A stretch of DNA of 64,000 bases from Bacillota bacterium (GTDB taxonomy: Bacteria > Bacillota > SHA-98 > UBA4971), in the NCBI GenBank assembly GCA_030024085.1, contig JASEJE010000003.1:1-64000 (forward strand), written 5' to 3'. The notes under the pieces were generated by a model. It did not search any database. It was not told the origin of the DNA and saw only the letters and a list, made by a program, of their open reading frames with translations. Position 1 is the first letter of the stretch. Every line of letters begins with the position of its first letter. The position numbers were made by a program, and so were the translations under genes. Below are positions 1 to 59,461 of the stretch, piece after piece.

Positions 1-117
1 CGGCAACCCGGAATCTTCTCCCAAACCGGCATGGATTTCTGAACTCACACTTAGCAAGCACCGGCAACCCCAACACCGTCAGGAGAAGCGGCGCGAACTC
101 ATACCGCCATACTCAGG
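1..117 (+). repeat. Palindromic element, copy A: two right ends, one nested in the other
   Basis: Positions 1-54 match the right end of one element (CGGCAACC then a run ending ACTCACACTTAG, the sub-type also seen in copy E). Positions 55-117 match the right end of a second element, starting GCAAGCACCGGCAACC and ending CCGCCATACTCAGG, as in copies B and D. The junction falls at the place where intact copies read CCCTAGCAAGC, so the first element appears inserted at that CTAG. The body of the first element lies outside the window. The outer end contributes the TGA stop (113-115) of the neighbouring minus-strand gene. Confidence 0.7.
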
Positions 118-4998: not shown

Positions 4999-5208
4999 CT
5001 AAGTATGGCGTCATAAGTTTGCGCCACTTTTCCTGATGGTGTTAGGGTTGCCGGTGCTTGCTAGGGCGGGGCGTCGAGAATTTGGCTAGCCTTAAGCGCC
5101 AAATTCGAACGCATCTCACCGCACGCGCCGTCCCCGGAGTGCAACACCGGCAACCTGAACAGGACTTGCGCGCTGAAAAGTGGCGCGAACTTGTGGCGAT
5201 CTACCTAG
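4999..5208 (-). repeat. Palindromic element, copy B (full length)
   Basis: Full-length copy in minus orientation. Its two ends are a roughly 34-bp inverted repeat: one end begins CTAAGTATGGCGTCAT (4999 on plus), the other, read from 5208 on minus, begins CTAGGTAGATCGCCAC; both continue into GCGCCACTTTTC. Inside lies a second inverted repeat, GGTTGCCGGTG / CACCGGCAACC, and inside that a third, GAATTTGGC / GCCAAATTC. The 5205-5207 CTA of the outer end is the TAG stop codon of rodA. No protein is encoded. Confidence 0.85.
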
Positions 5209-15615: not shown

Positions 15616-15843
15616 GTGGGAAGGAAGAAGAACAACGATCGGCTGAGAACGCTGCGCCAGGTCGACCGGCTGAAGTGGGAAACCGCAGAGCAACTTGGCC
15701 TCGCCGACGACATGAAAGACGCTGACGAACTCAGCGTCAGGGAGGCCGGAAAGGTCGGCGGCCAGATGGTGAGGAAACTGGTCAAGAAGGGCGAGGAGGC
15801 CATCGCGAAGGAGAGCGCCAGGAAGGCCGAGAGGAACCCCTAA
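15616..15843 (+). CDS. Alpha/beta-type small acid-soluble spore protein
   Basis: A 75-residue protein with the conserved second half of alpha/beta SASPs: LKWETAEQLGL (family KYEIAxELG region containing the GPR protease site, here WETA instead of YEIA) and VREAGKVGGQMVRKLVKKGEE (family VGGxMVKRLI). Such proteins coat and protect spore DNA. It starts at GTG with AGAAGGAG about 12 bases upstream. It is the only clear plus-strand gene in the window. The N-terminus is short and basic. The TAA stop (15841-15843) is formed by the first bases of palindromic element C. Confidence 0.85.
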   Translation: MGRKKNNDRLRTLRQVDRLKWETAEQLGLADDMKDADELSVREAGKVGGQMVRKLVKKGEEAIAKESARKAERNP

Positions 15844-16023
15844 GTGTGGGTTCAGAAACCACCGCCACTTTTCGAGGGTTGCCGGTGTTGCCCTCCGGGG
15901 AGGGCGCGTGCGGTGAGATGCGTTCGAATTTGGCGCTTAAGGCTAGCCAAATTCTCGACGCCCCGCCCTAGCAAGCACCGGCAACCCATCACAAAGTCGG
16001 GACACTTGTGCGCCCTCACTTAG
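15840..16023 (+). repeat. Palindromic element, copy C, with a gene stop codon at each end
   Basis: About 184 bp, plus orientation. The left end CTAAGTGTGGGTTCAG (15840) and the right end, read on minus from 16023 as CTAAGTGAGGGCGCAC, are inverted relatives. Inside are GGGTTGCCGGTG / CACCGGCAACCC, the hairpin CCCTCCGGGGAGGG, and GAATTTGGC / GCCAAATTC. The left TAA ends the SASP gene and the right TAA (minus) ends rnfB. As a stable bidirectional hairpin between convergent genes it could act as a shared terminator. Confidence 0.85.
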
Positions 16024-19688: not shown

Positions 19689-20097
19689 CAAACGATCCCC
19701 CCACTTGTACCGCTGTTCGAGAGTCTGCTGGCGCTGCTCCGGCCGCGGCGCCCCGGACAACCGACTAAGTAGATCGCCACGAGTTCGCGCTACTTTTCAG
19801 CGGGTGAGTCCTCGCCAGGGTTGCCGGTGTTGCCCTCCGGGGACGGCGCGCTTGCGGCGCGCCTCGTTCGAATTTGGCGCTTAAGGCTGGCCAAATTCTC
19901 GACGCCCCGCCCTAGCAAGCACCGGCAACCCCAACACCGTCAGGGAAAACGGAGCGGACTCGTGGCGCCGTACCTGGCACAGAACCCGGCCGGCCCGAAG
20001 GTGGCCGCATCCCGGGGGCCGCGTCGCGCAGCCGCCAGCAGCCCGATAGACGGGCCCGATGCTGCAGCGGCGCAGGCATGGGCCGCGCGACCGGGCC
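19689..20097. other. 409-bp gap inside the rnf operon
   Basis: Holds the rnfD ribosome-binding site, palindromic element D (19765-19977) and about 120 bp of GC-rich sequence following the rnfC stop in which I see no gene. Confidence 0.6.
19765..19977 (+). repeat. Palindromic element, copy D (full length), between rnfC and rnfD
   Basis: About 213 bp, plus orientation. Left end CTAAGTAGATCGCCAC; right end GGCGCCGTACCTGG is slightly decayed. Interior: GGTTGCCGGTG, a strong hairpin GGCGCGCTTGCGGCGCGCC, GAATTTGGC with partner GCCAAATTC, and CACCGGCAACC. Neither end overlaps a stop codon: the left end is about 77 bp upstream of rnfD and the right end about 120 bp past the rnfC stop. Confidence 0.85.
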
Positions 20098-29300: not shown

Positions 29301-29579
29301 CTCGAGCGAGGCTGTCACCCCGGCATCTTCCAACTCTTGCTTGAGCGCATCGAAGACCTCCCACGCACCCGCGGCCATGCCGCAGGTGCCCATGCCCACG
29401 ATCACCCGTGCGGGCGCGTCCTCGTGTCTGACCCTGGCAACAAGGGTTTTCACAAGCTCCCGGCATCCGGGGTCGTCATGGCACAGGGGGCCCTCCACCC
29501 GGCATCTAACAAAGTCCCGGCAGGGATTACCGTCGAAGTGGGTACACTTATCGCAACACTTGAAAAGCAATACTCCCAT
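26364..29579 (-). CDS. HndB-NuoF-GltD multidomain flavoprotein (formate dehydrogenase partner)
   Basis: A 1071-residue protein. Order: an N-terminal Cys-rich patch (seven Cys in the first 39 residues), a thioredoxin-like [2Fe-2S] domain (GMGTCGMAAGA, TGCIGMCEQE), NuoF FMN/NADH domain (GRGGAGFPTGMKW, NADEGDPGAFMDR, GEETALIASIQGERG) with its [4Fe-4S] ESCGKCVPCR, then a GltD-type half: Fe-S entry motif CQNACPAGVDVPRY, FAD site [15 protein letters not shown] and NAD(P) site VIGGGNAAIDAARTA. The ATG at 29579 has GGTGAGGG upstream; the frame runs on to 29702 without homology. With FdhA it could form a two-polypeptide NAD(P)-dependent, perhaps bifurcating, formate dehydrogenase. Confidence 0.9.
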   Translation of the reverse strand: MGVLLFKCCDKCTHFDGNPCRDFVRCRVEGPLCHDDPGCRELVKTLVARVRHEDAPARVIVGMGTCGMAAGAWEVFDALKQELEDAGVTASLERTGCIGMCEQEVLVDVVLPGASRVTYGRVTPDMIPRIVDEHVVQGRPVAEWVVGEISDEAHPYRELPYYAKQHRVVLRNCGFIDPENIDEYLVRDGYLALSKSLQMRPEDVIEEVTRSGLRGRGGAGFPTGMKWGFARRASGERKFVVCNADEGDPGAFMDRSVLEGDPHAVLEGMTIAAYAIGAQRGYIYVRAEYPLAIARLRVAIAQAREYGFLGENILGSGFSFDIAIKEGAGAFVCGEETALIASIQGERGMPRPRPPYPAISGLFGMPTNINNVETYANVPPIIRRGAAWYASIGTEKSKGTKVFALTGKVRNTGLVEVPMGISLGEIVFDIGGGIRDGKKFKAVQIGGPSGGCLPDVLLNLPVDYESLTGAGAIMGSGGLVVADEDTCMVDLARFFLQFVQNESCGKCVPCRIGTLRMLEILNRITEGLGTMEDIDTLVELALKVKELSLCGLGQTAPNPVLATIRYFRDEYEAHIRDKKCPASVCAALFEAPCQNACPAGVDVPRYISLIRQKRYQDAVKLIKEKNPFPAVCGRVCTHPCEGKCRRSQLDEAVAICDLKRFAADWELMNPLPPDRPAVRKDAKVAIVGSGPAGLTAAYYLAGFGYQVTVFEALPEAGGMLRAGIPEYRLPKDVLDAEILAICRRGVEIRTGVAVGKDITLEDLKEQGYRAIFIAVGANVSQKLGVPGEDLEGVIGAVEFLREVNMNGRRKVGKKVAVIGGGNAAIDAARTALRLGAKEVHIIYRRQREDMPADKNEIAEAEREGVKIHFLTAPFRMIGRNGKLVNMECVRMSLGEFDRTGRRRPVPIEGSNFIIDVDMVISAISQRPDASVVPAGSRIEVTKWSTIVADPRTHATGEPGVFAGGDCVNGPDTVIQAIADGRRAAEEIDRFLGGTGEIPVSLDLGRELAGEIHEERMARQRPEKLAIDERKGGFREVVSGLSEACALYESERCLRCDVASSGAEHADRLMAR

Positions 29580-48258: not shown

Positions 48259-48547
48259 GTGGTCCCGAGAGGACCAGGATACGTGCATAGGTGGGATCCT
48301 GGGGACAGGCTTCGTGCGGGATCTGGTCCCGGGCGATCCACCTTGCGGGGTTTTCGAGAGCGAAGCTAAGAGGGGTGGTCCTCACGGGATCAGGATCAAC
48401 GCCAAGCTGGTCCCCCAGGGATGGGGCTCGCCCGCGGATCTGGTCCTTGCGAGACCACCCCCCGTCAACTCACGCAATCTGGTTCCCAGGAGACCAGCGG
48501 TGCAGGTGACAATGTTACCAGGGGACCATGTGACCGGAGGACCCAGG
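48259..48547. repeat. Array of about eight to nine degenerate 18-bp palindromes
   Basis: Units begin near 48259, 48291, 48321, 48374, 48404, 48437, 48476, 48511 and 48532, mostly 30-39 bp apart. Plus-strand examples: TGGTCCCGAGAGGACCA, CTGGTCCCGGGCGATCCA, TGGTCCTTGCGAGACCA, CTGGTTCCCAGGAGACCAG. The common core is (C)TGGTC-N7/8-GACCA(G). Units differ but keep the inverted halves. No open frame explains the pattern. Confidence 0.65.
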
Positions 48548-53650: not shown

Positions 53651-54013
53651 TCAGGCGCTGGCTATGACCCACTCGCCCACAACCTGGCCGTTAACGATGT
53701 GGCTTGCCACGATCTGGCGGGCCTTCTCCTTCGTCACCTTCCCATATGTCACTTTGGTAGCGCCGGGCTTTATCACGTCGACGATGGGCTCCTGCTCGCA
53801 CAGGCCGATACACCCTGTCTGGGTCACCACCACATCCTGGATGTTACGCTTCGCGAGTTCCTCCATGATGGCCGCGAGCGTTTCCCGCGCCCCTGCGGCG
53901 ATGCCGCACGTGCCCATGCCCACCACGATCCTCGTGGTCTCCTTGCCCTCACGCAGCCTGGTCATGGCCTGGGCCTGCTTCCTGATGCGATCCAGTTCCT
54001 CAACGGTCTTCAT
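53651..54013 (-). CDS. hndB: Small [2Fe-2S] subunit of the Hnd hydrogenase
   Basis: A 120-residue thioredoxin-like [2Fe-2S] protein with GMGTCGIAAGARETL and TGCIGLCEQEP, closely resembling the N-terminal domain of the NuoF-GltD fusion at 26364-29579. First gene of the operon; ATG 54013 follows CAGGAGGTG. Electron-transfer role in the hydrogenase complex. Confidence 0.92.
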   Translation of the reverse strand: MKTVEELDRIRKQAQAMTRLREGKETTRIVVGMGTCGIAAGARETLAAIMEELAKRNIQDVVVTQTGCIGLCEQEPIVDVIKPGATKVTYGKVTKEKARQIVASHIVNGQVVGEWVIASA

Positions 54014-54471
54014 CGCGGACACCTCCTGAGCTTTCCCCTCTCGGCACGGTTGCGTCGAGTGTACACCTAGTTTCGCCAACTTCGTACATACTTGAGGACT
54101 TCGCGCTTTCCTTCACAATCCCCCTTCCAAAGAGACGCTCCGGCCCGTAGCCCACACAGCACCTATGATACCATCGGGTAGACTCCCCAGGCAACCAGTA
54201 TTTCCACGCACCTGGCCGGATTCCTCCATGGCTTTGCCCGCCAGGCGCGATCTCTACGTGTGAGTTCGTAGATCCATGCCGGCTTGGGAGAGACTGCCAG
54301 TTTGCCGGTGCTTGCTCGCCGGGGCGCTCTCGATCTGGCAGGCCTGAATGCTAGGCCTGACGAGGCGCGCCGCAAGTGCGCCGTCCCCGGAGTGCAATAC
54401 CGGCAACCCCTGGAAAAGTGGCCGTGATTTCTGAACCCGCACTTGGATTCATGACGCCACACAACGGCCGA
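54014..54471. other. 458-bp region upstream of hndB, containing element E
   Basis: Must contain the hnd promoter, but I see only a Rex half-site (TTGTGAA on minus near 54114-54120) and no convincing -10/-35 pair. Palindromic element E occupies about 54255-54447. Confidence 0.5.
54255..54447 (-). repeat. Palindromic element, copy E (divergent sub-type)
   Basis: About 193 bp, minus orientation. Read on minus: end CCAAGTGCGGGTTCAG, then GCCACTTTTCC, GGTTGCCGGTATTGC, hairpin GGCGCACTTGCGGCGCGCC, hairpin CAGGCCTAGCATTCAGGCCTG-like core (7-bp arms CAGGCCT/AGGCCTG), GCAAGCACCGGCAAAC, then a decayed end near CTACGTGTGAGTTC. The inner hairpin has a different sequence from copies B-D but the same pairing. 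Confidence 0.75.
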
Positions 54472-59299: not shown

Positions 59300-59461
59300 C
59301 CGCATGTACAAGTTTGGAGACCACTTCTGCTTCGGCGAAGGTTACCGGTGTTGCACCCCCGGGGACGGCACGCCAGGCGGGGCGCCTCGACAGAAATGCG
59401 GTACCGGCGACGCCGAACCTCGCGGGAAAACCGTCGCTGCAAGGCCAGGAACGTGCGCTCA
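59300..59461 (+). repeat. Palindromic element, copy F (degenerate)
   Basis: Recognised from GGTTACCGGTGTTGCACCCC and GGGGACGGC, with later parts strongly diverged. The right side, read on minus from 59461 as CTGAGCGCACGTTCC, resembles the CTAAGTGTGGGTTC end and again contains the stop codon (TGA) of its neighbour, the SPOR gene. Confidence 0.45.

Follow-up and report, generated by a model that had tools for sequence, protein, structure and literature searches.

RUP of Streptococcus pneumoniae is a short, non-autonomous element with TA termini that is thought to be mobilized in trans by the transposase of IS630-Spn1 (PMC2229807). The ERIC/IRU (RU-1) sequences of enterobacteria are long, imperfect, intergenic palindromes with TA termini and a TA duplication; they are spread over related genera and reach up to 711 copies, in Photorhabdus (PMC2229807, PMC10969869). 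The Correia/NEMIS elements of Neisseria have terminal inverted repeats, duplicate TA and give stable stem-loop transcripts (PMC2229807, PMC10969869), for which processing by RNase III has been demonstrated, and ERIC RNAs, like those of Correia elements, are known to serve as sites of mRNA processing (PMC10969869). Insertion sequences of the IS630 family duplicate TA as well (PMC2170065), and a preference for TA in CTAG is stated in the title of Tenzen and Ohtsubo (1991), which is cited in PMC2170065.

Here we describe a family of palindromic repeats in a 64-kb window (the whole stretch of DNA analyzed, 64,000 nucleotides) and in the remaining genome of a member of Candidatus Fermentithermobacillia, a little-studied, heat-loving lineage of Bacillota. 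The family is new, and its kind is already known: its members are very likely palindromic DNA transposons of the MITE/ERIC/RUP type, non-autonomous and high in copy number, which are mobilized in the way proposed below. The family resembles RUP in its short length, its TA termini and the proposed action of an IS630 transposase in trans. It differs from RUP in that it folds into a Y, has arms of three types, numbers hundreds of copies and is GC-rich, and no IS630 gene with matching ends was found here. ERIC shares the long palindrome, the intergenic location, the TA termini and duplication, the high copy number and the spread over related genera, but is 127 bp long and belongs to another host phylum; the likeness is one of anatomy, and no sequence relation is claimed. 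Correia/NEMIS elements share the terminal inverted repeats and the TA duplication, and have different termini. With ISY100 and IS630 the family has in common the TA duplication and the preference for TA in CTAG, while the element encodes no transposase.

Anatomy and distribution of the family

The genome (3,114,874 bp in 65 contigs) was read in stretches amounting to 857,541 bp (∼28%), which contain 102 core matches and 80 elements with both ends paired. A loose first look at the whole genome, in which only the best 13-40 matches per search were scored, gave about 350 candidate copies (334-356 depending on the query). The 80 end-paired copies fall into three subfamilies, a, b and c, with lengths of mostly 205-209, 188-191 and 193-195 bp, respectively. 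The element is thus short (about 190-207 bp), non-coding and present in many copies, as is typical of a MITE. The window contains the following features:

1..51, no strand assigned: copy A, a b-subfamily copy (3' half) that has inserted at the CTAG inside an a-subfamily copy, with TA following at 52-53
54..113, no strand assigned: the rest of the a-subfamily host copy around copy A
5002..5205, minus strand: copy B, a-subfamily; flanks TA (5000-5001 and 5206-5207)
15843..16020, plus strand: copy C, a chimera of a b left arm and a c'-like right arm; flanks TA (15841-15842 and 16021-16022)
19768..19974, plus strand: copy D, a-subfamily; flanks TA (19766-19767) and TG (19975-19976)
54257..54443, minus strand: copy E, a b-subfamily element of 187 bp that is missing from the orthologous site of three congeners
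54326..54363, minus strand: tip hairpin P5 of copy E, with register-shifted CAGGCCT/AGGCCTG and a partly broken homologous register
59340..59408, plus strand: a partial, decayed copy (core positions 2-68)

Copy A is broken off by the contig end at base 1. Many contigs of the assembly start or stop inside copies, as at 1-113 of the window, and the element probably limits assembly of the genome.

Three pairs of outer arms (a/a', b/b' and c/c') surround one shared core and define the subfamilies. All arms begin with AGTR and form terminal inverted repeats, as in other MITEs. The core consists of a stem, GGTTGCCGGTGTTGC…GCAAGCACCGGCAACC, and two tip hairpins, and its predicted fold is Y-shaped on either strand. 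Since the subfamilies misalign in mixed alignments, folds were derived from subfamily consensus sequences and per-subfamily alignments. The letters of tip P5 differ between subfamilies and are paired in all of them (GAATTTGGC/GCCAAATTC, AGATTTGGC/GCCAAATCT and AAAATCCGGC/GCCGGATTTT), and those of tip P4 are likewise paired (GGCGCGC/GCGCGCC and GGCGCCC/GGGCGCC). Because both tip hairpins and the Y palindrome are paired across the three subfamilies, the structure is kept at the level of the source lineages. The core varies less than the outer arms in subfamilies a and c.

Some copies are chimeras, and in some the arms have traded places around the core. At L062:6343, L101:5932 and L105:11084 the outer arms are exchanged as if the core had been inverted between them. 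One end of four further copies (L003, L016, L062:10338 and L109) has the terminal CTAAGTG replaced by ATCAACRGTCTC, two of them with similar flanks; these ends perhaps reflect another repeat family or recombination.

The family is present in all five congeners (up to 272 candidates), in most genomes of a sister genus and, within a second family of this class, in two genomes, while it was not found in 44 genomes from elsewhere in the phylum. Records carrying the core are Bacillota MAGs, one of them named Candidatus Fermentithermobacillaceae. At orthologous places in relatives, copies E, B and D are absent, the gaps being too diverged for clean junctions. The place of copy C is occupied by a different sequence, which in one relative (G004) is another element of the type.

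Insertion into CTAG and restoration of stop codons

The element ends read C-TA-RGT...ACY-TA-G, and the letters farther out are random. Of 69 copies, 44 have the same dinucleotide on both sides, compared with 34 expected (permutation p = 0.0004), and the agreeing flanks include TG/TG five times and GT/GT once. For other duplication lengths or registers no flank agreement beyond chance was observed, which leaves the 2-bp register only. Nested insertions at the CTAG of the family's own core show the same 2-bp TA duplication, C-TA-[AGT…ACT]-TA-G; genome-wide, dozens of these core sites are intact (GGTGCTTGC-TA-GGGCGGGG) and represent empty sites, and about ten are occupied. In one nested element (C44:27929-28074) both junctions are visible, with TA on each side. 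TA duplication and CTAG preference together are those of an element mobilized by IS630/Tc1-mariner enzymes.

Copy E is flanked by TA (54255-54256) and TG (54444-54445), between C54254 and G54446, and the TG is taken as a mutated TA. It occupies an intergenic gap, with an RseC/MucC-like gene on one side and a [2Fe-2S] thioredoxin-like ferredoxin gene on the other; both genes are encoded on the minus strand.

Based on a simple, uncurated set of hexamer-scored open reading frames, the distance from the element to the neighboring gene is exactly -2 in 22 of 66 stop-side junctions and in none of 70 start-side junctions. A third of the neighboring stop-side junctions therefore fall exactly in the stop codon, which is restored by the terminal purine of the element. 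An FtsW/RodA-family gene owes the G of its TAG stop codon (5205-5207) to the terminal base of copy B, and the terminal bases of copy C complete the TAA stops of two convergent genes, one for a SASP (plus strand) and one of the 4Fe-4S ferredoxin type (minus strand). Copy C occupies the entire gap between these two genes (stops 15841-15843 and 16020-16022). Only 11 of 80 copies lie within predicted genes, compared with 158 of 289 free CTAGs (p = 1e-11).

We propose that a DDE transposase, most likely of the IS630/Tc1-mariner superfamily, acts in trans, and that this enzyme would excise the element at AGT...ACT and insert it into the TA of CTAG, thereby duplicating TA. Both ends of the element start with A or, less often, with G, and insertion at a stop codon within CTAG would therefore regenerate TAA or TAG. 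Such insertions would be tolerated, while those inside genes would be lost. The Y palindrome, composed of the terminal inverted-repeat stem, the core stem and the two tip hairpins, would be retained in lineages that still propagate, and after insertion each copy would decay regardless of pairing. Stop-regenerating ends, seen here in a large family of MITEs from an uncultured class of Bacillota, offer such elements a clear route to toleration.

Tip hairpins and the pattern of change between copies

According to the preliminary description, copy E differs in its tip hairpin from copies B, C and D, which hold GAATTTGGC...GCCAAATTC, and yet keeps a perfect 7-bp pairing through compensatory change. 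The letters are as described, and the tip of copy E does hold CAGGCCT and AGGCCTG. The nearest relatives of copy E are b-subfamily copies, whose tip hairpin is AGATTTGGCATTCAGGCTTGCCAAATCG, while copy E has AGGCCTAGCATTCAGGCCTGCCAGATCG. In the register of these relatives, the successive pairs of copy E are G-C, G.T, a C.A mismatch, C-G (compensated), T-A, an A.C mismatch, G-C and C-G, so that one pair is compensated, one is G·T and two are mismatched. The 7-bp hairpin joins the left arm to former loop bases; its pairs are non-homologous, and it is therefore not a change at the same pairs. Hence, an RNA-type compensatory change does not hold for copy E. In a simulation with seven random changes, ∼9% of sequences retained some perfect hairpin of at least 7 bp, and 0.5% did so in a shifted register, so that one shifted-register hairpin among hundreds of decayed copies is not surprising.

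A similar problem affects the covariation claimed for the left inner hairpin of copies C and D, as the segments compared are 12 nt apart and non-homologous. The CCCTCCGGGGAGGG of copy C is located at core offset 15, 12 nt upstream of the hairpin of copy D with which it was compared; its homologue in copy D, also at offset 15, is CCCTCCGGGGACGG. At core offset 27, copy D has GGCGCGCTTGCGGCGCGCC and copy C the weaker GGCGCG--TGCGGTGAGATGCG; the hairpin energies at this offset on the two strands are -10.5 and -4.0 kcal/mol for copy C versus -18.4 and -15.4 kcal/mol for copy D. Apparent compensatory change in repeats can thus arise from register shift and from the comparison of non-homologous segments. 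The predicted fold exceeds chance in a b copy (L010, z = -6.3) and in copy E (z = -2.8). Family and fold go beyond chance, while the specific compensation claim does not. From the wider proposal that covariation points to a folded RNA or a cruciform, the pairing of the tip hairpins across subfamilies with different letters remains; the examples cited for it and selection for a folded RNA do not.

The elements could instead encode a functional structured RNA (a processing site, stabilizer, terminator or sRNA) that is selected copy by copy. The fold is predicted to be strong on both strands, the copies sit in gaps beside stop codons where they may be transcribed, copies that point against the operon are in weak excess (26 to 12, p = 0.03), and ERIC and Correia RNAs set the precedent as mRNA processing sites (PMC10969869). 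However, a tree-based version of the covariation test that the preliminary description had suggested was nearly empty, with 1 of 45 structural pairs significant among 130 a/b cores and 0 of 40 among 69 c cores, which is not the result expected of a structured RNA; recombination between copies weakens any tree-based null. The strongest covariation signals form blocks of neighboring columns. An independent count in 26 b copies gave 8 doubly changed pairs versus a shuffled mean of 7.1, a number reached in 186 of 500 shuffles. Tolerated mismatches show no strand bias of the kind that selection on an RNA would leave (G.U 195, A.C 165, p = 0.13), and no Rfam family matches the element. Within subfamilies, changes on one side of a pair are ∼14 times as frequent as Watson-Crick doubles (515 to 37). 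With 50 observed, doubles slightly exceed the 27 expected under independence, in part owing to a single inherited G-C/A-T difference.

Paired columns are also unprotected from private mutations, of which 176 fall on 312 paired and 137 on 279 unpaired columns; among these singletons the mismatches are balanced (G.U 38, A.C 39) and only 2 doubles are compensated. In the larger alignment, individual copies therefore vary in their inner arms without keeping pairing, the outcome that the preliminary description had named as evidence against its own reading. Variants shared by at least 3 copies are depleted at paired columns, in contrast to private ones (Fisher p = 0.0005), although part of the shared set may be due to other causes of core conservation, and the private changes include assembly errors. 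Since private changes ignore pairing and shared variants avoid paired sites, the structure is kept in propagating lineages and not in resident copies. Most copies are unlikely to act as a functional RNA, and we regard selection for such an RNA copy by copy as highly improbable. More generally, this copy-level test (private versus shared changes, G·U versus A·C) distinguishes selection acting on a mobile element from selection acting on an RNA.

Retention of the palindrome and candidate enzymes

The palindrome may be retained because it is needed for mobility, or as a by-product of arm-to-arm copying. In the first case, a DNA cruciform or single-stranded hairpin would be selected for mobility of the element, for instance through recognition or excision of a folded strand. 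This would agree with the retention of the palindrome in shared but not in private variants, with folding on both strands, and with a core stem and tip hairpins that are conserved between two families of the class. However, the known enzymes that act on single strands in folded form (HUH/Y1) are not known to duplicate TA. None was found in the source genome, and TA at CTAG points to a DDE enzyme; we consider this explanation possible but doubtful.

In the second case, template switching or conversion between the palindrome arms (quasipalindrome correction), together with recombination between copies, would preserve pairing without any structural selection. The neighboring-column blocks that dominate the covariation signal would fit this process, as would the chimeric and arm-swapped copies. 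Private changes are nearly free of arm-to-arm correction, so the process would have to be rare or confined to active copies, and it appears rather unlikely as the explanation.

Extragenic palindromes in high copy number would also fit REP/RAYT-type repeats spread by a Y1 transposase. We consider such an origin hardly credible, as no Y1_Tnp domain was found in the source genome, while control genomes gave matches, and the elements are about 190-207 bp long, have a 2-bp duplication and contain no GTAG-tagged stem.

For the DDE transposase preferred here, the class is suggested by target and duplication, and the element was probably once mobilized by an IS630/Tc1-mariner enzyme. No IS630-type catalytic domain (PF13358, DDE_3) was found in the whole source assembly, and in the 28% of the genome covered by end pairing no element bounded by these ends carried a transposase gene. 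IS630-type genes or remnants do occur in relatives (L138, L143 and L146-L149 in G015; L140-L142 and L144 in G001, G002 and G004), none of them with the ends of this family. Because no IS630 gene with shared ends was found, the element is described as working like a member of IS630 and is not filed as one. A search for DDE_Tnp_1 gave one weak match, at C36:936.

Three arm types and a core that is better kept than the arms would be unusual if only the ends were recognized. A speculative reading, in our judgment quite unlikely, takes the Y-shaped core instead of the ends as the conserved unit. With arms that can be exchanged and a folded core retained in two bacterial families, mobility would then require that the folded core be recognized in addition to CTAG/TA targeting, and the terminal purines would have been retained for their regeneration of stop codons, which would provide a 'safe haven'.

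Elsewhere in the window, alignment with one congener (G003, contig C2 20418-20839) shows ∼420 bp extra in the congener relative to ∼48259-48262, where the alignments overlap by 4 bases. A 41-bp stretch at 29359-29399 is 88% alike to 53883-53923, which is located inside the [2Fe-2S] thioredoxin-like ferredoxin gene; the two probably belong to paralogous ferredoxin genes.
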